DNA from: Methylococcaceae bacterium
Lineage (GTDB): Bacteria > Pseudomonadota > Gammaproteobacteria > Methylococcales > Methylomonadaceae
Assembly (NCBI GenBank): GCA_030627265.1
Contig: DAOUSK010000005.1
Span: forward strand, 1 to 44,258
DNA length: 44,258 nucleotides
Direction: 5' to 3'
Part shown: one piece after another, positions 4,214 to 44,258 of the stretch
How the letters are laid out: each line of letters starts with the position of its first letter
Numbering within the stretch: the stretch's first letter is position 1
The notes under the pieces: model-generated
Seen by the model: only the letters and a program-made list of their open reading frames with translations
What the model was told of the DNA's origin: nothing
Database searches by the model: none
Made by a program: the position numbers and the translations under genes

Positions 4214-4918
4214 ATGAGCACTGAAAACGTACATCTACACGAAATTAATAAATTTGGCTCTCAAGCTGAACGCTGGTGGGACAGAAATGGAGAGTTTAAA
4301 ACGCTGCATGATGTCAACCCATTACGTATTAAATTTATACAGCAATTTATTAATTTACAAGATAAACGTATGGTTGACGTGGGCTGTGGCGGCGGAATCT
4401 TAACCGAAGGTCTGGCTAATAAAGGGGCCAACATTACAGGTATAGACCTTAGCCAAGAATTACTCGATGTTGCTGATTTACATGGTTTAGAATCAGGCTC
4501 TACAGCGAAATACCAAAAAATCAGCGCCGAATCCCTTGCTGATATTGAAGAAGCAAGCTTTGATCATATTGTTTGCATGGAGATGCTAGAGCACGTTCCT
4601 GAACCTGGGTCAGTCATCGCTGCCTGCGCAAAAATGGTCAAACCTGGTGGTTACGTGTTTTTCTCAACACTTAACCGTCAACCTAAAGCCTATTTAATGG
4701 CGATTGTTGCTGCTGAACATGTATTAAAAATGCTACCGGCTGGCACACATGATTACAAAACGTTCATTAAACCTTCTGAGCTTAGCCAATCTGCACGTAA
4801 TGCTGGTTTAGAGCTAGTTGATATGATTGGTATTCAATACAACCCTTTAACTAAAAGCTTTAGCTTAGGGAAGAATATAGATATTAATTACATCGCCGCT
4901 TATAAACGCCCTGAATAA
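4214..4918 (+). CDS. ubiG: 3-demethylubiquinone-9 / 2-octaprenyl-6-hydroxyphenol O-methyltransferase
   Basis: VDVGCGGGILTEGLA SAM motif, EHVPEPGSVIAACAKMVKPGG, NRQPKAYLMAIVAAEHVL. Confidence 0.95.
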   Translation: MSTENVHLHEINKFGSQAERWWDRNGEFKTLHDVNPLRIKFIQQFINLQDKRMVDVGCGGGILTEGLANKGANITGIDLSQELLDVADLHGLESGSTAKYQKISAESLADIEEASFDHIVCMEMLEHVPEPGSVIAACAKMVKPGGYVFFSTLNRQPKAYLMAIVAAEHVLKMLPAGTHDYKTFIKPSELSQSARNAGLELVDMIGIQYNPLTKSFSLGKNIDINYIAAYKRPE

Positions 4919-4923
4919 TTAAT

Positions 4924-5610
4924 ATGCACACTGATTTCCCACTAGCGGCTGTTTTTTTTGATTTAGATGGCACATTGCTCAACACCGCACCTGACTTAAT
5001 AACCGCCTTAAATAAAGCGCTATTAAATTTTGGTTTTTCAAGCGTGGGAGAGGCTGAGATTACGCCTTTCATTTCTTACGGTGCTTTAGCAATGATTGAG
5101 CAATCTGTGCCTGCTCATACCGATGAAAACAGAAAAAATGAAATATTAAACTGGCTCATTGATTATTATGAACTTCATATTGCTGACTTTACTCAGCCTT
5201 ATGAAGGTATGCTAACTATTTTAGAGACTTTAGATACACATGAAATTCCGTGGGGAATTGTGACTAATAAACGGGAACGCCTTGCCATTCCTCTAATGAA
5301 GGCTTTGAATTTATTTGAGCGGTCAGCTTGCCTTATTTGTGGTGACACCACTGCACATAGCAAGCCACACCCAGAGCCTATGCTTGCAGCTTGCAAGCAA
5401 GTTGAAGTGTCCGCCAAGCAATGCCTCTATATTGGTGACGCACAGCACGACATAACGGCAGGGAATTATGTCAATATGAAAACATTTGCTGCCACTTACG
5501 GTTTTTTAAAGGCTGATGATACGCCTGAATCATGGGGGGCTGATGTTTTAATCGACCACCCTTTACAAATTTTAGACTGGATAAAAACTTATACTCATGC
5601 CTTTAAGTAA
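4924..5610 (+). CDS. gph: phosphoglycolate phosphatase-like HAD hydrolase
   Basis: FFDLDGTLLNTAPDL, TNKRERLA, YIGDAQHDITAG HAD motifs; downstream of ubiG. Confidence 0.85.
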   Translation: MHTDFPLAAVFFDLDGTLLNTAPDLITALNKALLNFGFSSVGEAEITPFISYGALAMIEQSVPAHTDENRKNEILNWLIDYYELHIADFTQPYEGMLTILETLDTHEIPWGIVTNKRERLAIPLMKALNLFERSACLICGDTTAHSKPHPEPMLAACKQVEVSAKQCLYIGDAQHDITAGNYVNMKTFAATYGFLKADDTPESWGADVLIDHPLQILDWIKTYTHAFK

Positions 5611-9853: not shown

Positions 9854-12800
9854 TTATTTAATTCAATGAGTGCTTGTTCAAAATCATAATTTTCAATTGC
9901 ACTCGCGACTTTTTTAAGTTGCTGTTGCTCTTCTTCTCTGACGACAGCATTACTAAGCGCTAAAAATGAAGTTTCTGAATTGGAATCATAATTCTCCAAA
10001 TTTTCTCTTACCGATTGTAATAATTCATTAAATTCTTCAGCAGAAATTTCATTTTTTTGCTTTATACCTAAATCATTATTAATTGTCGTATTACTGCTTA
10101 AAAAATCATCAATTTCAATTAATACATTATCTAAGGAAGTCTGAATATCAGGCAATAATTTTTGTGCTTGTTCAAACTCTTCAGAATAACAATATTTTTC
10201 AACTTTTGCTGCCAGTTCATGTAAAGAGATAGTTCCAATATTGGCAGCGGTGCCTTTTATTGTGTGCGCTAAACGAGTCGCTTGCTCAATATCACTAACA
10301 TTTAACAAGTTAGATAACTCAATACCCGCGTCAGCAAAGCTTTCTTTAAAACGCCTTAATAAACGAATATAGAGGTCTTTATTGCCACTTAACAGTTTCA
10401 AACCCGCGTGAATATCTAGGTGTGCATTCTTTGTTACGTCATAACTATTATTGTTATTATCTTGCTCGTCAATAATTTCAGAATTTGATTCTTCACTGCT
10501 AACTTCAAGGCTTACATTACCATTCCCCCTCCTTAAAGCCCACTGGTCAATTGTCGCCATCATTGCATTAACATTAATAGGTTTAGCAATATGATCATCC
10601 ATGCCTGAATTTTTGGCACGCTCAAGATCATCCGCCATAACATTGGCAGTCATTGCAATAATCGGCAAATCAGCGCCCCATTCAGCTCTGATTTTTTGGG
10701 TTGCCGTATAACCATCCATTATTGGCATTTGGCAGTCCATCAAAACAATATCATAATTATTATTTTTAGCGACTAACTCCACCGCTTCATGACCGTTTTC
10801 TGCAAGATCGGCAGTCATGCCTCGCATTTCCAATAATTCTAGTGCTAGTTCTTGATTAAACTGGTTGTCTTCTACCAATAAAACATGCACACCTTGCAAT
10901 GACGTAGGTTTATTGTTGGCAACTTCTTCGACTATTTTCTTAATATTTTGTACGCTACCTAAGCAGTTATTTAACACACCCCATAAAGCGGATGCACTAA
11001 AAGGTTTGGTTAAAATATTAGCCGCTATCAAGCCTTGTTCATCCATCTCATTTTCAAGGTCGTGGCTGTCATAAGCCGTTGCCATAACAACAAAAGGCGA
11101 ATGACTTAAGTGCAATGAATTAATCTTTATTAAGGTTTCAATGCCATCCATTTCTGGCATTTTCCAGTCCATGATAATGGCATCAAATATTTCTCCTCGT
11201 GTCAGGCAAGCTAATGCTTGTTTACCACTAGCAACAACCTCTACATCAAAACCTTGTGCAGCAACTTGCCTTTCTATAATTTCTCGGCTGGCATCGTTAT
11301 CATCAACGACTAAAACCCGACTGCCCTCAATATGCGCAATTTTTGCTGGCACTTTTTCTGTACTTTCATCAAACGTCAAACAAAAACCAAAGGTACTACC
11401 TACCCCTACCTCAGTCTTGACGCTAACTTCCCCACCCATTAAGCCCACTAACTGCCCTGTAATAGCAAGGCCTAAACCTGTTCCACCATATTTTCGTGTC
11501 GTTGAAATATCTGCTTGAGAAAAGGCTTTAAATAAGCCATTTTTCTGCTCTTCAGTCATCCCAATACCGGTATCTTTAACTGAGAAAGATAAGGTCACTT
11601 GGCTATCTTTTTGCTCTTTTAAAGCCACAGAAATAACAACATCACCTTTTTCAGTAAACTTAATAGCATTATTTGCAAAATTAACAATGGATTGCCTTAA
11701 CCTTAGCTCATCCCCCATTAACGCATTGGGAATTGAAGGATCAATATCAACTAATAATTCTAGCCCTTTTTTACTGGCGGGCAAGGCAATCAGATCAGTA
11801 ACACCCACTAATACATGGTCTAACAAAAAGTGTTCATGCTCTATATCTAATTTATTAGCCTCAATTTTAGAAAAATCTAGAATATCATTAATTAAGTTAA
11901 GTAGTGCTTCAGCGCTACTATTCACTTTATTAATGTAATTTTTTTGTTTTTCATTTAAATCTGTTTGTAATGCCAAATAACTCATCCCAATAATGGCATT
12001 CATTGGAGTACGAATTTCATGACTCATATTGGCCAAGAATAAACTTTTCGCCGTATTGGCAGACTCAGCACTAATCGCCGCATCTTTCGCTCTTTGCAGT
12101 GCTTTATCTAACGCCTCTTGCTGTAATCTGAGTGCGGTTATATCTTGAAAAGCAATCACTCCACCTTGTAATGCATCACCTTCATAAATTGGCACTGCTG
12201 AAACATACACAGGCATTTGACTCCCGTCTTTACGAAAAAAGACTTCTTTATCGGTATGGAAAGCCGCTTTATCTAATAATGATTGAGAAATAACACAATC
12301 ATGCACAGGCAGTGGGGTTCCTTTTTCATCTTGGTAATGCATTAATTCATGCATCTTTTTACCTTTCATTTCAGCTAAACTGTAGCCCAATAAATGCTCA
12401 GCTGTTGGATTTGCATAAGTACATCGCCCCTCAGCATCTTGCGCATAAACACCTTCTGCAAGTGCTTCAGTAATTGATGTATAAAAAGCACGCTCTGCTC
12501 TAATTTTTTCTTCTTCTATTTTTCTAGCCGTAATATCGGTACGAATAGACATATATTCTATCGGTTTCCCCCCCTCCCCAAGCAAAGGAACAATGGTTGA
12601 ACGAGTCCAATAAAAACCACCCTGCTTATTTTTATTTTTAATTTCTCCATGCCATGTTTCTCCTTTAGCGATCGTTCGCCACATAGTTTTAAAAAACTCG
12701 GCATCATGCGCATCTGATTTTACAAGTCGATGATTTTTACCCAGTAACTCTTCTTCTAAGTAACCAGTAATTTCACAAAACTTATCATTCACATAAGTAA

Positions 12801-13815
12801 TATTACCTTTAACATCTGCACTTGAAACAATGGCATGCTGGTTTAATACCTGTTGCTGAAAATCAAATGAACGCGCTGCTTTTTCTAATTTACTGGTAAC
12901 GGCTGACATTCTGTACAGGGTATATGCAATAAAAAACGCCATAATTAGTGCTAATGACACCCACGCCAGCTGGTAATAACGCGCTTGAATTATTTTTTGC
13001 GTATAAAAAACATCGTAGTTACTAGCTAATTGCTGAATATTATCCGTTAATTCGTCATGAATTATTTTATAAACAACAATATTTATTTCTTTGCTATGTT
13101 CTATAAAAATAGTGCCATGAGTTAAAAGTGCATCAAACATATCCAATAACTCTACTGGTACTTTATCTCGTGCTGTGCGCAACGCCTCAATCGTTTTAGC
13201 ACCTGAGTTATTAGTCATACTGTCATCGACTAACGCTAACAAAGAGTTATTCACTTTATCCGTTAAAAACCTAACATCTTCATTATCTATATAAAGTTTA
13301 GATTTAAACTCCCCTGCTAAAAATGAGCGATTAACTTTTTTCGTTAAAAATTTAACATTTTCATTATCTATATGAAGTTTAGCTTTAAATTCTCTTGCTA
13401 AAAAAGGAAAATAATATTTTGAATTTCTTAGAATGGCTAAATGTGACTTATACTGTTCTAAAAGCTGTTCTCGCTGCTCAATAGAATTAGCGAGGACAGT
13501 TCTTGGAGCAGATAAAACTTTCCGTGTTTCTAAATCAAGGTTATCAAAATAATGTTTTTGAATATGTATAAGTTTATTCATTTGCATCACTAAATCATCA
13601 TAATCTAGTCTCAAGCCAAGTCGTATTCCTAATACCGCTTCTTTAGACAAAGAATTAGCATTTTTTAATTCTGAATGATCCTTGGTTATTTTGTCATGTA
13701 CCGTACTGGAAAGCCCCTCTCCTTTCATATATAAAAAAACAGCTAAAACAGCCAGCGCAATGATAATAAATATATTTCTACCCTTTGAAGGTGGCATCGA
13801 TAATTTAGTTTGCAT
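9832..13815 (-). CDS. BarA-like hybrid sensor histidine kinase (TM, 2 PAS, HisKA, HATPase, 2 REC, Hpt)
   Basis: NMSHEIRTPMNAIIGMS H-box, GGTGLGLAI, DWKMPEMDG and MDCQMPIMDG receivers, AHTIKGTAANIG Hpt. Confidence 0.95.
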   Translation of the reverse strand: MQTKLSMPPSKGRNIFIIIALAVLAVFLYMKGEGLSSTVHDKITKDHSELKNANSLSKEAVLGIRLGLRLDYDDLVMQMNKLIHIQKHYFDNLDLETRKVLSAPRTVLANSIEQREQLLEQYKSHLAILRNSKYYFPFLAREFKAKLHIDNENVKFLTKKVNRSFLAGEFKSKLYIDNEDVRFLTDKVNNSLLALVDDSMTNNSGAKTIEALRTARDKVPVELLDMFDALLTHGTIFIEHSKEINIVVYKIIHDELTDNIQQLASNYDVFYTQKIIQARYYQLAWVSLALIMAFFIAYTLYRMSAVTSKLEKAARSFDFQQQVLNQHAIVSSADVKGNITYVNDKFCEITGYLEEELLGKNHRLVKSDAHDAEFFKTMWRTIAKGETWHGEIKNKNKQGGFYWTRSTIVPLLGEGGKPIEYMSIRTDITARKIEEEKIRAERAFYTSITEALAEGVYAQDAEGRCTYANPTAEHLLGYSLAEMKGKKMHELMHYQDEKGTPLPVHDCVISQSLLDKAAFHTDKEVFFRKDGSQMPVYVSAVPIYEGDALQGGVIAFQDITALRLQQEALDKALQRAKDAAISAESANTAKSLFLANMSHEIRTPMNAIIGMSYLALQTDLNEKQKNYINKVNSSAEALLNLINDILDFSKIEANKLDIEHEHFLLDHVLVGVTDLIALPASKKGLELLVDIDPSIPNALMGDELRLRQSIVNFANNAIKFTEKGDVVISVALKEQKDSQVTLSFSVKDTGIGMTEEQKNGLFKAFSQADISTTRKYGGTGLGLAITGQLVGLMGGEVSVKTEVGVGSTFGFCLTFDESTEKVPAKIAHIEGSRVLVVDDNDASREIIERQVAAQGFDVEVVASGKQALACLTRGEIFDAIIMDWKMPEMDGIETLIKINSLHLSHSPFVVMATAYDSHDLENEMDEQGLIAANILTKPFSASALWGVLNNCLGSVQNIKKIVEEVANNKPTSLQGVHVLLVEDNQFNQELALELLEMRGMTADLAENGHEAVELVAKNNNYDIVLMDCQMPIMDGYTATQKIRAEWGADLPIIAMTANVMADDLERAKNSGMDDHIAKPINVNAMMATIDQWALRRGNGNVSLEVSSEESNSEIIDEQDNNNNSYDVTKNAHLDIHAGLKLLSGNKDLYIRLLRRFKESFADAGIELSNLLNVSDIEQATRLAHTIKGTAANIGTISLHELAAKVEKYCYSEEFEQAQKLLPDIQTSLDNVLIEIDDFLSSNTTINNDLGIKQKNEISAEEFNELLQSVRENLENYDSNSETSFLALSNAVVREEEQQQLKKVASAIENYDFEQALIELNNCYPEQG
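13246..13406 (-). repeat. 81-nt (27-aa) tandem duplication in the hybrid kinase periplasmic region
   Basis: protein LAREFKAKLHIDNENVKFLTKKVNRSF / LAGEFKSKLYIDNEDVRFLTDKVNNSL; CGTTAAAAA recurs at 13261 and 13342. Confidence 0.85.
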
Positions 13816-39916: not shown

Positions 39917-40043
39917 GTTTTTTACCTAAAAATTTAAGTTTAAAAAATATTTTTTGATCGCCGCTATTATAATGATATTCCCCAAAATAGTGCAGCCTGT
40001 TTAGTGGTAAAATATAGCATTACCAACTAACATACAAGATGCC

Positions 40044-41030
40044 GTGCCAAAAAAAATTCACCGTATTGCTTTAACCTCTGGCGAACCCGCTGGAATTGGC
40101 CCTGATTTATGCATCCAGCTCGCACAAAATCAACTAGACTGTCAGCTTATTACCCTCGCTGACCCAGAATTATTGGCACAGCGTGCCGCACTATTAAACC
40201 TCCCTCTCAGTATTAAAATTTTTAACCCTGAAAGTGAAATAGTAGGCCATACCCCAGGTGAGTTAGTTGTTTTACCCTGTTATTTACCCGAGCAATGCAT
40301 CGCTGGGCAATTAAACAAAAATAACAGCAGCTATGTTTTAAAAATGATAGAAATTGCTAGTAAAGGCTGTCTATCCCAGCTTTTTTCGGCCATGGTAACA
40401 GCCCCAGTACATAAGGGCATTATTAACGATACGGGGCTTGAATTTACGGGGCATACTGAATATATTGCCGATATCACCGGCGGCCACCCCGTTATGATGC
40501 TTGCAACAGAAGGCTTACGGGTTGCATTGGCAACAACACACCTACCTTTATCTAAAGTTAGCGCTGCTATTACACAATCTAGCCTTAACACGGTTATTGA
40601 ATTATTAAATAATGATTTACAAAGCAGATTTGGACTTAAAAACCCCAACATATTGGTTTGCGGATTAAACCCACATGCAGGCGAAGATGGTCATTTAGGC
40701 CACGAAGAAATTGAAACAATTAACCCTGTTTTAGATCGATGTAAAAAATCTGGCATGAATGTGCAAGGCCCCTTTCCAGCCGATACTGTGTTTACCGAAA
40801 AGTATCTAAAAGATGCGGATGCCGTTCTCGCAATGTACCACGACCAAGGACTGCCTGTTTTAAAATACAAAGGTTTTGGCAATGCAGTTAATATCACTTT
40901 AGGCTTACCTATTATTAGGACATCTGTTGACCACGGGACCGCATTAGATCTTGCAGCAACTGGGAAAGCAAATGTTAATAGCTTAGTTTTCGCCTTACAA
41001 ACCGCCATTGAAATGGCAAACAACTCATAA
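40044..41030 (+). CDS. pdxA: 4-hydroxythreonine-4-phosphate dehydrogenase
   Basis: TSGEPAGIGPDL, TAPVHKGIIND, CGLNPHAGEDGHLG, MYHDQGLPVLKY. Confidence 0.96.
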   Translation: MPKKIHRIALTSGEPAGIGPDLCIQLAQNQLDCQLITLADPELLAQRAALLNLPLSIKIFNPESEIVGHTPGELVVLPCYLPEQCIAGQLNKNNSSYVLKMIEIASKGCLSQLFSAMVTAPVHKGIINDTGLEFTGHTEYIADITGGHPVMMLATEGLRVALATTHLPLSKVSAAITQSSLNTVIELLNNDLQSRFGLKNPNILVCGLNPHAGEDGHLGHEEIETINPVLDRCKKSGMNVQGPFPADTVFTEKYLKDADAVLAMYHDQGLPVLKYKGFGNAVNITLGLPIIRTSVDHGTALDLAATGKANVNSLVFALQTAIEMANNS

Positions 41031-41039
41031 GATACCACT

Positions 41040-41840
41040 ATGGCACATAGAGCACGCAAACGTTTTGGACAAAATTTTTTACATGACCACTACATTATCG
41101 ACAATATTTTAGGCTCCCTTGGCTACACCAAAGACCAGCATTGGGTTGAAATTGGCCCAGGGCAAGGTGCTTTAACTGAACCGATGCTTGAAAGTGGTGT
41201 TTTGCTCGATGTTGTTGAGCTAGATCGAGACTTAGTGAAATTTCTTGATTATAAATTTGATAAATTTGATAACTTAACCATTCATAGCTCCGATGCTTTA
41301 CGTTTTGATTTTGCTAGTTTATCCGTTGAAAATGAAAAACTGCATATTTTAGGTAATTTACCGTACAACATATCCACACCGCTAATGTTTCACTTATTAA
41401 GTAATATCCCTCGTATTGCGGATATGACTTTCATGTTACAAAAAGAAGTCGTTGATAGGATCTGCGCTGAGCCAGGTAGCAAAAAATACGGTCGCTTAAG
41501 TGTAATGATCCAATATTACTGCCATACCGAACATTTATTTGATGTACCGCCCGAAAGCTTTGATCCTGCCCCTAAAGTGATGTCTTCGATTGTACGTTTA
41601 GAGCCGTTTGAAAAGCCTCCTGTAGAAATCAATTCAGTAAAGTCACTGAATACCGTGGTAACCGCTGCCTTTTCACAGCGCCGTAAAACTTTACGCAATT
41701 CTTTACGAAAATTGATTTTAGAAGAACATATTATCCAATTAGGCATAGACCCTAAAGTGCGTGCAGAAACTATTTCTTTAGCTGATTTTGCCAAGCTAAG
41801 TAATTTTGTTGATGAAAACCCATTAGCAATAGAAGAGTAA
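41040..41840 (+). CDS. ksgA: 16S rRNA dimethyladenosine transferase
   Basis: RKRFGQNFLHD, VEIGPGQGALTEPM, LGNLPYNISTPL. Confidence 0.97.
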   Translation: MAHRARKRFGQNFLHDHYIIDNILGSLGYTKDQHWVEIGPGQGALTEPMLESGVLLDVVELDRDLVKFLDYKFDKFDNLTIHSSDALRFDFASLSVENEKLHILGNLPYNISTPLMFHLLSNIPRIADMTFMLQKEVVDRICAEPGSKKYGRLSVMIQYYCHTEHLFDVPPESFDPAPKVMSSIVRLEPFEKPPVEINSVKSLNTVVTAAFSQRRKTLRNSLRKLILEEHIIQLGIDPKVRAETISLADFAKLSNFVDENPLAIEE

Positions 41841-41841
41841 A

Positions 41842-42627
41842 ATGCTTAAATTTACCGCTAACTTAAGTTTATTATTTACTGAGTACCCTCTCATTGAACG
41901 ATTTAAAGCGGCAAAAGAACAGGGATTTAAAGCGGTAGAAATTCAATTTCCTTATGAGCTTGATGCCCAGGTATTACGCAATGAACTCGACAAGCAGCAA
42001 TTAAAACTGGTTCTTTTTAATGTGGCTGCCGATGATTTATTACAAGGCGGCGAAGGTTTAGCCGCTGTTCCTGAAAAGCAGCAACAATTTCAAGAAGCAC
42101 TTGCCACTGCTGTTGAATATGCCAAAATTTTAAAGCCAGAAGCGATTAATATTTTACCAGGCTGCTGTTTTGATGAGGAAAGGTTAATAGCTTACCAAGA
42201 TACATTCAAAACAAACCTTAAATCAGCATTAGCGACTTTTTCACCCTTAGGTATTAAAACCGTCTTTGAAGCAGTCAATACGTATGATATGCCGCACTTC
42301 ATCATTCATAATAGTGAACAAATGCTAAGTATTCTCAGCGAGATAAATCACCCCGATTTATTCATGCAATATGATATTTATCACCTTTATAAAATGCATG
42401 AAGACCCCGAGCATTTTATTTCAACTTATGCCGACAAAATCGGCCACATTCAGTTTGCGGATAGCCCAAATAGACATGAGCCAGGCACAGGGGGAATTGA
42501 TTTCAACGCGATATTCAATAGCATTGAAAAATCTAATTATAACGGTTGGGTGGGTGCGGAATATAAACCTCTGCACTCAACTGAGGAATCTTTAGGCTGG
42601 TTAAATTTTCAAAGAACTCTAAATTGA
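41842..42627 (+). CDS. hyi: hydroxypyruvate isomerase-like TIM-barrel protein
   Basis: MLKFTANLSLLFTEYPLIERFKAAKEQGFKAVEIQFPYE, GHIQFADSPNRHEPGTGGIDF. Confidence 0.9.
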   Translation: MLKFTANLSLLFTEYPLIERFKAAKEQGFKAVEIQFPYELDAQVLRNELDKQQLKLVLFNVAADDLLQGGEGLAAVPEKQQQFQEALATAVEYAKILKPEAINILPGCCFDEERLIAYQDTFKTNLKSALATFSPLGIKTVFEAVNTYDMPHFIIHNSEQMLSILSEINHPDLFMQYDIYHLYKMHEDPEHFISTYADKIGHIQFADSPNRHEPGTGGIDFNAIFNSIEKSNYNGWVGAEYKPLHSTEESLGWLNFQRTLN

Positions 42628-42641
42628 AAACGAGGAAAATC

Positions 42642-42720
42642 GTAGCCCGTATGGAGGTACGGAATACCGGATAAACAGCGCATCGAATGCCCCGCATTAC
42701 GCAAGCTTCATACGGGCTAC
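42642..42720. repeat. REP/MITE-like palindromic element
   Basis: terminal inverted repeat GTAGCCCGTATGGAGG...GCTTCATACGGGCTAC. Confidence 0.75.
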
Positions 42721-42762
42721 TTGCTGGATTTTTTGGTTCCGCGTGCAAGCAATTGTTAGATC
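42721..42762 (-). other. truncated integron attC site (R''/L'' half only)
   Basis: minus strand ATCTAACAATTGCTTGCACGCGGAACC immediately after the endonuclease gene; abuts the REP element; no partner GTTAG found. Confidence 0.6.
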
Positions 42763-42777
42763 AATTTTTTGATGAGT

Positions 42778-43509
42778 TTATGTCCACATTTTACGAGGTT
42801 TCTTTTTCTGGGTGTGGATGTCACCACTAGCTATGCGATCCCAGAAACGCCCGCCCACCTTTTGTTCCACATCGTAGGTCACTACTAGATAGTCCTCTAG
42901 ATTTCCGCTTAGCTGTTTATTTTCCATTTCGAATGTCCATAATTTCAGACGACCACGGCTGTCTTCAGCTAGTACACTTTTGACAAATGCATGAGGGATT
43001 GGAACATCGATACCATGTTTTTCCGTTTCGTCCCCAATAGTTTCGATCTTCTGATCAAAGTAGAATACAGGTGCAGTTAAAACGTAGGTCTCCAGAATGC
43101 TTTTCTTTTTGTTGAGATCACGTATTGCCATTTCTAGGTCACGCCACATTCTTCGGTTAAAGTTTGGTTTTTGAGGTGACATATTTGACAATAGAAAGGT
43201 TTCGCTATTTTGAATCTCTAATTCATCTTGATTTGCGCTTGCGGCAAGATGCCCACGGTCAAAACCACTGCTCGCATAGGCTTTTAGGCCTGCTCGAAAT
43301 CTGCGAGGGACACGAATATCTGCACGAAAATTATCACGACGCTCCACCTCCCACTCAAAAATCGCATTGGGATTGATGATCTCTAACACCCATTTAGCCT
43401 GCCTGAAATACCACGAGTAACCGATAGTGAAATATCTCCCAGTTAATATTTCATCACATACTGGTGCGCCATACCTAAGCTCGCGCTGCATCTGAAATGG
43501 ATCGCTCAT
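42778..43509 (-). CDS. DNA/RNA non-specific endonuclease (NUC family), integron cassette gene
   Basis: GFDRGHLAASANQDE (DRGH motif), LSNMSPQKPNFNRRMWRDLE; RBS AAAGGAGAAAGTTATG; flanked by attC-like sites. Confidence 0.9.
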   Translation of the reverse strand: MSDPFQMQRELRYGAPVCDEILTGRYFTIGYSWYFRQAKWVLEIINPNAIFEWEVERRDNFRADIRVPRRFRAGLKAYASSGFDRGHLAASANQDELEIQNSETFLLSNMSPQKPNFNRRMWRDLEMAIRDLNKKKSILETYVLTAPVFYFDQKIETIGDETEKHGIDVPIPHAFVKSVLAEDSRGRLKLWTFEMENKQLSGNLEDYLVVTYDVEQKVGGRFWDRIASGDIHTQKKKPRKMWT

Positions 43510-43551
43510 AACTTTCTCCTTTAGTTAAGTGCTGATGATGAAGTTTTTTTA

Positions 43552-43648
43552 TCTAACGCCTGCATCAGCTGCCGCCGAAAGTGGCTTAGCTTTTGCGCAT
43601 AGCAAAAGATATAACGCTTTCGGCGGTCAGCTGGATGCAATTGTTAGC
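43552..43648 (-). other. integron attC recombination site
   Basis: minus strand GCTAACAATTGCATCCAGCTGACCGCCGAAAG...CTTTCGGCGGCAGCTGATGCAGGCGTTAGA: imperfect palindrome with two unpaired bases and terminal RYYYAAC/GTTRRRY boxes. Confidence 0.9.
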
Positions 43649-44043
43649 TCTTTAGTTTTATTCAATATTTCAGATCCACATTCTATAGAAAACAGTTTGA
43701 AATTTATTTTCAACTTATCATTTGATGTCTGAAATTCATATACATAAGGCCCGTAAAATCTATTTTCAGGGTATCCATAATCCAGCATTTTTACTACTTT
43801 ATTGATTTCATTCCACTATAAAGATTTCGTTGAGAAGAAACCAGTACTACTTAATTTATGCTCGTCAAATTTTACTTTAAACCTTAAACGTATAATTAAC
43901 AGTAATAAAATAACAGCAACCCCAAGTACAGTCATACCCGGTACATTCCCATAAATTCCGCTATAAATTGATAACAAAGAAAGAAAAGTCAGTATAACTG
44001 TTAGTCCAATCATGCTTTTAAATGTTGCTGTGTATTCTTTCAT
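43627..44043 (-). pseudogene. cassette gene for a small two-TM protein, interrupted by an in-frame TAG at 43816-43818
   Basis: the same frame continues after TAG for 62 codons (WNEINKVVKMLDYGYPENRFYGPYVYEFQTSNDKLKINFKLFSIECGSEILNKTKELTIASS) and stops within attC. Confidence 0.7.
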
Positions 44044-44053
44044 ATTTTCTTGA

Positions 44054-44136
44054 GAGATAACGATTTAAGTAAGGGGCTGGCGCGTAGCGACAGTCCCAGC
44101 GACCAACGGGAGCGAACTTGACTTGTTTGTTATGTG
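44054..44136 (-). other. integron attC recombination site
   Basis: minus strand CATAACAAACAAGT...GCTGGGACTGTCGCTACGCGCCAGCCCCTTACTTAAATCGTTATC; terminal boxes and GGGACTG/CAGCCCC core. Confidence 0.85.
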
Positions 44137-44191
44137 TTGATTGCATCAAAATACCTCAATATCTGTTTGTGACCGATGATTGGCGTTTAAT

Positions 44192-44258
44192 TTAAGTATG
44201 TGTTAACTGAAAAATAGCACTTGAGATAGCCCCAACAAAAAATAATAAAACTACGATA
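44192..44258 (-). CDS. C-terminal fragment of a further cassette gene (runs off window)
   Basis: minus-strand ...IVVLLFFVGAISSAIFQLTHT* just upstream of the attC at 44054-44136. Confidence 0.35.
   Translation of the reverse strand, partial: IVVLLFFVGAISSAIFQLTHT

Follow-up and report, generated by a model that had tools for sequence, protein, structure and literature searches.

Genes and sites at the right end of the contig

The window (the whole stretch of 44,258 nucleotides analysed here) corresponds to contig C155 in a draft assembly of 2.3 Mb and 182 contigs (~92% complete, contamination estimate 3%), and its right edge is the contig end. The chromosomal left border of the region is a hyi-like gene on the plus strand (41842–42627), assigned by synteny and by a match to TIGR03234 (3.3e-83) that lies below the model cut-off. 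To the right of hyi are two minus-strand open reading frames (ORFs), 42778–43509 (243 aa) and 43816–44043 (75 aa), followed by the 3′ end of a third minus-strand cassette (44137–44258), which is cut by the contig end. Each of the two ORFs is followed by an attC site or its remnant, with one gene per attC and the gene lying upstream in the same orientation. This right end of C155 is an integron gene-cassette array, i.e., genes separated by folding recombination sites, which is a known kind of system. An earlier note on this DNA had proposed both the cassette layout and an array running off the right edge, and both descriptions hold. Its integron reading is likewise supported, by matches to an attC model and by sites that either fold or match the attC type of relatives.

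attC sites

The attC at 43552–43648 (type 1, minus strand) forms the 3′ end of the small-membrane-ORF cassette and the start border of the nuclease cassette. The features first claimed for it are all present, i.e., the terminal boxes GCTAAC/GTTAGA, the inner hairpin CTTTTGC/GCAAAAG, and an L arm with extrahelical bases. The folds of the two strands reach −30.7 and −34.4 kcal/mol, whereas shuffled sequences average about −14.4 and −15 (z = −7.1 and −8.3, the latter for the stable hairpin of the bottom strand), and none of 200 shuffles was as stable. One or more extrahelical bases in the L″/L′ stem, on the R″–L″ arm, are a criterion for attC sites (PMC2727003); such bases were found by a descriptor in both sites of the window and are clear in the folds of 43552–43648. 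An Rfam search of 40000–44258 gave no match up to E = 1, and BLAST of this attC against its own genome returned the site itself as the sole match, sequence search being too weak for attCs.

A covariance model (R1) was built from a MAFFT alignment of ten similar sites, of which nine lie on intI-bearing loci in relatives. Compensatory changes were observed in 15 of the 29 pairs of this alignment (A1). In addition, 95.5% of its cells pair, vs. 77% in shuffles, and the signal is lost when the partners are slid, a control that covers only partly the tendency of MAFFT to misalign palindromes. The site scores 102.6 bits on the minus strand vs. 53.2 bits on the plus strand, so the attC is oriented as the genes are; since the site is among the ten training sequences of R1, the 102.6 bits taken by themselves are in part a circular result. 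Neither the fold test nor the occurrence of a very similar site beside intI in a relative (G019, L020:3805–3901) is circular.

The half site claimed at 42721–42762 (minus strand) consists of the R″/L″ arm only, CTAACAATTGCTTGCACGCGGAACC, and has GCAATTGTTAG in common with the intact attC at 43552–43648. The claim can thus be refined to a remnant of the attC ending the nuclease cassette, beside a repetitive element. R1 gives a weak match at 42695–42760 (14.9 bits, E 0.009), which runs into a 79-bp palindromic repeat on the plus strand (42642–42720, GTAGCCCGTAT...ATACGGGCTAC). This MITE/REP-like repeat abuts the remnant in place of the missing arm, and the genome holds 15 near-full-length copies of it including that of the window, the others being 84–94% identical. 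We infer, also as regards the order of events, that 42721–42762 is an attC truncated beside, or by, the 79-bp repeat.

The second attC (type 2, minus strand), claimed at 44054–44136, has its core at 44055–44135 and forms the 3′ end of the third cassette, which runs off the window. Its boxes, ACATAAC and CGTTATC, are each one position off the consensus RYYYAAC/GTTRRRY. Plain folding gave z = 0.0 on the minus (cassette) strand and −1.9 on the plus (bottom) strand, for which 6 of 200 shuffles were as stable. The site is outside the training set of R1 and was missed at default filters; with the filters off, it ranked fourth in 2.26 kb (11.3 bits, E 0.09). A strict R/L descriptor matches it with an R of 5 bp and an L of 7 bp with one bulged base, for which the chance expectation is ~0.05 per 610 bp.

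The decisive support for this predicted attC is the comparison with relatives. When 301 genomes of the order were searched at the DNA level, 14 genomes besides this one gave matches, almost always to a single 29-nt core. The core is present in 10 of the 11 loci fetched, with one to three differences (28/29 at best), and most copies are flanked by CTAAC and GTTA boxes. In the L stem of the window site, read by eye, AGT/ACT replaces AGC/GCT; this change is compensatory and adjoins the same bulged C. A comparison of this site with plasmids gave no match. Two attC types are therefore combined in the array, which would be expected of cassettes derived from different integrons; attC structure has been linked to the host taxon (PMC8352920).

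It is extremely improbable that these sites are unrelated REP/MITE palindromes between ordinary genes. A repeat of such a kind is indeed present at 42642–42720; however, the same site architecture occurs near intI in relatives, with covariation and with R boxes, there are two attC types, and the genome has an intI.

Integrase and attI at another locus

No intI was found in the window. Four tyrosine recombinases were found in the genome, and the one that scores as an integron integrase lies on C180 (575–1561; TIGR02249, 450.8 bits vs. a cut-off of 265), beside yggS–pilT. Its catalytic motifs (R, K, H..R, H, Y) are present as GLRISE, GKG, HTFRH, LLGH and TMIYTH. The integrase is 91% identical in a related genome, G015, with which the order intI–yggS–pilT is shared. 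The attI core is a 28-base block upstream of intI, TAACTATTACTTCTAAAGTAACTTCGCC, which is identical in G015; the arrays of the two genomes diverge just past its TAAC, as expected for attI. A minus-strand acyltransferase ORF starts ~20 bases beyond the attI border and is likely the first cassette of this intI-bearing integron.

An integron integrase and further attCs are thus present in the genome, on other contigs. As for the right of the window, where the earlier note had suggested looking for intI, synteny points to panD rather than intI beyond the array.

The panD side of the array

In three relatives (G015, G007 and G006), the gene after hyi is panD, whereas the panD of this genome is on another contig, C120. 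The C120 end carries an attC at 4942–5039 (78.2 bits) and a weaker one at 4321–4448 (28.5 bits) with an ORF between them. The attC orientation agrees with that on C155, and over 190 nt the end shares 85% identity with the integron of G015. These observations are most simply read as a single array lying between hyi and panD, of which C155 and C120 would be the two ends. No contig-end overlap of C155 with C120, C180, C173 or C102 was found, and the last 105 bases of C155 have no significant match to any other contig.

Several further features were observed on C120 (L058) and elsewhere. A 76-bp diverged piece of hyi (C120 4007–4081; 89% nucleotide identity to window 42415–42489) is found on the panD side, with a GTPase gene pair on one flank and the attC array on the other, i.e., a partial hyi duplication flanks the array. 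The two adjacent GTPase genes (L058:1004–3756; DUF697/MMR_HSR1) between panD and the array have weak LeoA/LeoBC matches in PADLOC, and no such pair was seen in the hyi–panD interval of G015. A ~90-bp palindromic element with no obvious ORF occurs next to attI in G015 and beside an attC of the same array (L030:7249–7338 and 13386–13475), as well as at the end of C120; it is perhaps part of a gene-less cassette. On C6 (L060, 14968–15696), weak attC-like sites (20.5 and 29 bits) flank a YefM/YoeB toxin–antitoxin pair, which is possibly a lone toxin–antitoxin cassette. On C173 (L059), a lone attC at 9949–10044 (72.3 bits) lies 260 bases from the contig end and has an HNH endonuclease gene next to it.

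The definition of a CALIN used by IntegronFinder (PMC9024848) asks for at least two attC sites with no intI nearby. Two attCs are present in the window, with one strong and one weak on C120, in a draft assembly, and draft assemblies inflate CALIN counts (PMC9024848). The intI and attI adjoining the array in a complete integron were not found at the window, the stretch between C155 and C120 being unassembled and able to hold anything, including intI. Because synteny puts panD at the far side, CALIN is a better name for the window array than the tail of an intI-bearing integron.

The window array could instead be the distal end of a complete integron whose intI is that on C180, with more cassettes in the gap and with C120 as a further array split off by rearrangement. 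The orientation of the minus-strand cassettes, right of hyi and left of attI, fits C180, and assemblies tend to break at cassette arrays (PMC9024848). However, panD, the expected neighbour of hyi, is on a contig that ends in an attC array of matching orientation with a partial hyi beside it, and an extra rearrangement is needed to join C155 to C180. We regard this arrangement as unlikely.

The reading that we consider probable is that the hyi–panD cassette cluster is a CALIN, possibly served in trans by the IntI of the other locus. Against this reading stand the draft state of the genome, with its 3% contamination estimate, and a terminal site of which only a remnant is left. The right end of the window would then be where the cluster, inserted between hyi and panD, borders on hyi; all attCs and the two readable genes share one orientation, which would run from the panD side toward hyi. 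Its cassettes would have been captured via IntI recombination at folded single-stranded attC sites, and the cluster, with no adjacent integrase in the available assembly, would count as a CALIN. The intact IntI with its attI at the yggS–pilT locus could excise or shuffle the window cassettes in trans, and these sites may thus be recombined by the genome's own integrase.

Cassette genes

The cassette gene at 42778–43509 (minus strand, 243 aa) encodes a DNA/RNA non-specific endonuclease similar to EndoG. The match to Endonuclease_NS (PF01223; 5.5e-34, 118.2 bits vs. a cut-off of 23) is nearly full-length, and solved relatives are PDB 3s5b (1.2e-26) and 4qn0. The DRGH active-site motif of the family is present and is conserved in all 21 aligned sequences. 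The window protein differs from the family in having no obvious signal peptide, in lying in an integron cassette, and in being 72–87% conserved across phyla. Its presumed activity is nucleic-acid cleavage, possibly anti-phage or competitive; in PADLOC, the nuclease matches no defence model.

Copies of 72–87% identity occur in five phyla, Pseudomonadota (Thiotrichaceae, Xanthomonadales), Bacteroidota (Flavobacteriaceae), Verrucomicrobiota (Verrucomicrobia), Planctomycetota (Planctomycetes) and Cyanobacteriota (Cyanobium), whereas other matches in 251 genomes of its own order are only ~50% identical at the threshold used. Sequence identity of this pattern points to spread of the gene by wide lateral transfer. 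DNA similarity extends no more than ~15 bases past the ends of the gene, or breaks off within it, and the nuclease tree resolves few forks. Among plasmids and phages, only matches below 60% identity were found, so the vehicle was not found there. In L041, from an unclassified bacterium, a remnant of an IntI C-terminus (4674–4760, 69% identity over 29 aa) lies upstream of the nuclease homologue and a weak attC-like site (14.7 bits) just downstream, suggesting that integron carriage there is plausible. This site was the sole match, and a weak one, when the attC model was run with filters off on the other nuclease loci, none being found in the remaining loci searched. It is distinctly doubtful that the nuclease is a stand-alone, cross-phylum cassette gene with its own selected function, spread largely by integrons; such a function could be, for example, the destruction of phage or competitor DNA with no known partner.

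The second cassette gene (43816–44043, minus strand) is a membrane-type ORF of 75 aa for which no family match over the cut-off was found. Beyond an in-frame TAG, the same frame continues without a stop into the attC, suggesting that this ORF is probably a broken gene of ~130 aa.

This TAG bears on whether the cluster is a decaying CALIN, whose cassettes are fossils with no working recombination that degrade by point mutation and repeat insertion, an account that agrees with the preferred one on anatomy and differs from it on activity. The truncation of the terminal attC beside the repeat and the weak fold of the second attC also fit decay. However, the site at 43552 is in full consensus, intI is intact, and the nuclease is intact and close to its homologues in other phyla. 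On balance, decay is rather unlikely.

Comparison with known systems

A CALIN possibly served in trans, the preferred reading, resembles described CALINs (PMC9024848) in that attCs alternate with cassette genes of one orientation, two attCs being on C155 and at least one strong attC on C120, and in that intI is absent from both contigs. It differs in having an intI elsewhere in the genome and an array split over contigs; moreover, the attCs were called here by R1, folds, descriptor and comparison, whereas the CALIN definition is based on IntegronFinder. About half of Xanthomonas genomes have CALINs at a distance from the intI locus, and their mobilisation in trans has been stated as possible (PMC12444791). 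In Methylococcus strain Mc7, a complete integron occurs together with a separate attC cluster and a stand-alone integrase (PMC8527097). Sedentary chromosomal integrons (Vibrio, Xanthomonas; Mc7, PMC8527097) share with this genome a chromosomal intI with attI beside housekeeping genes and an attC type common to the integrons of relatives. In contrast to them, the window array is at another locus and mixes two attC types.

The conservation of the nuclease across phyla matters as a probable case of wide lateral transfer of a gene with only a putative role. The array also adds a genus that has an intact integrase together with attC clusters at other chromosomal sites, and the mobilisation of CALIN cassettes in trans thus becomes testable.
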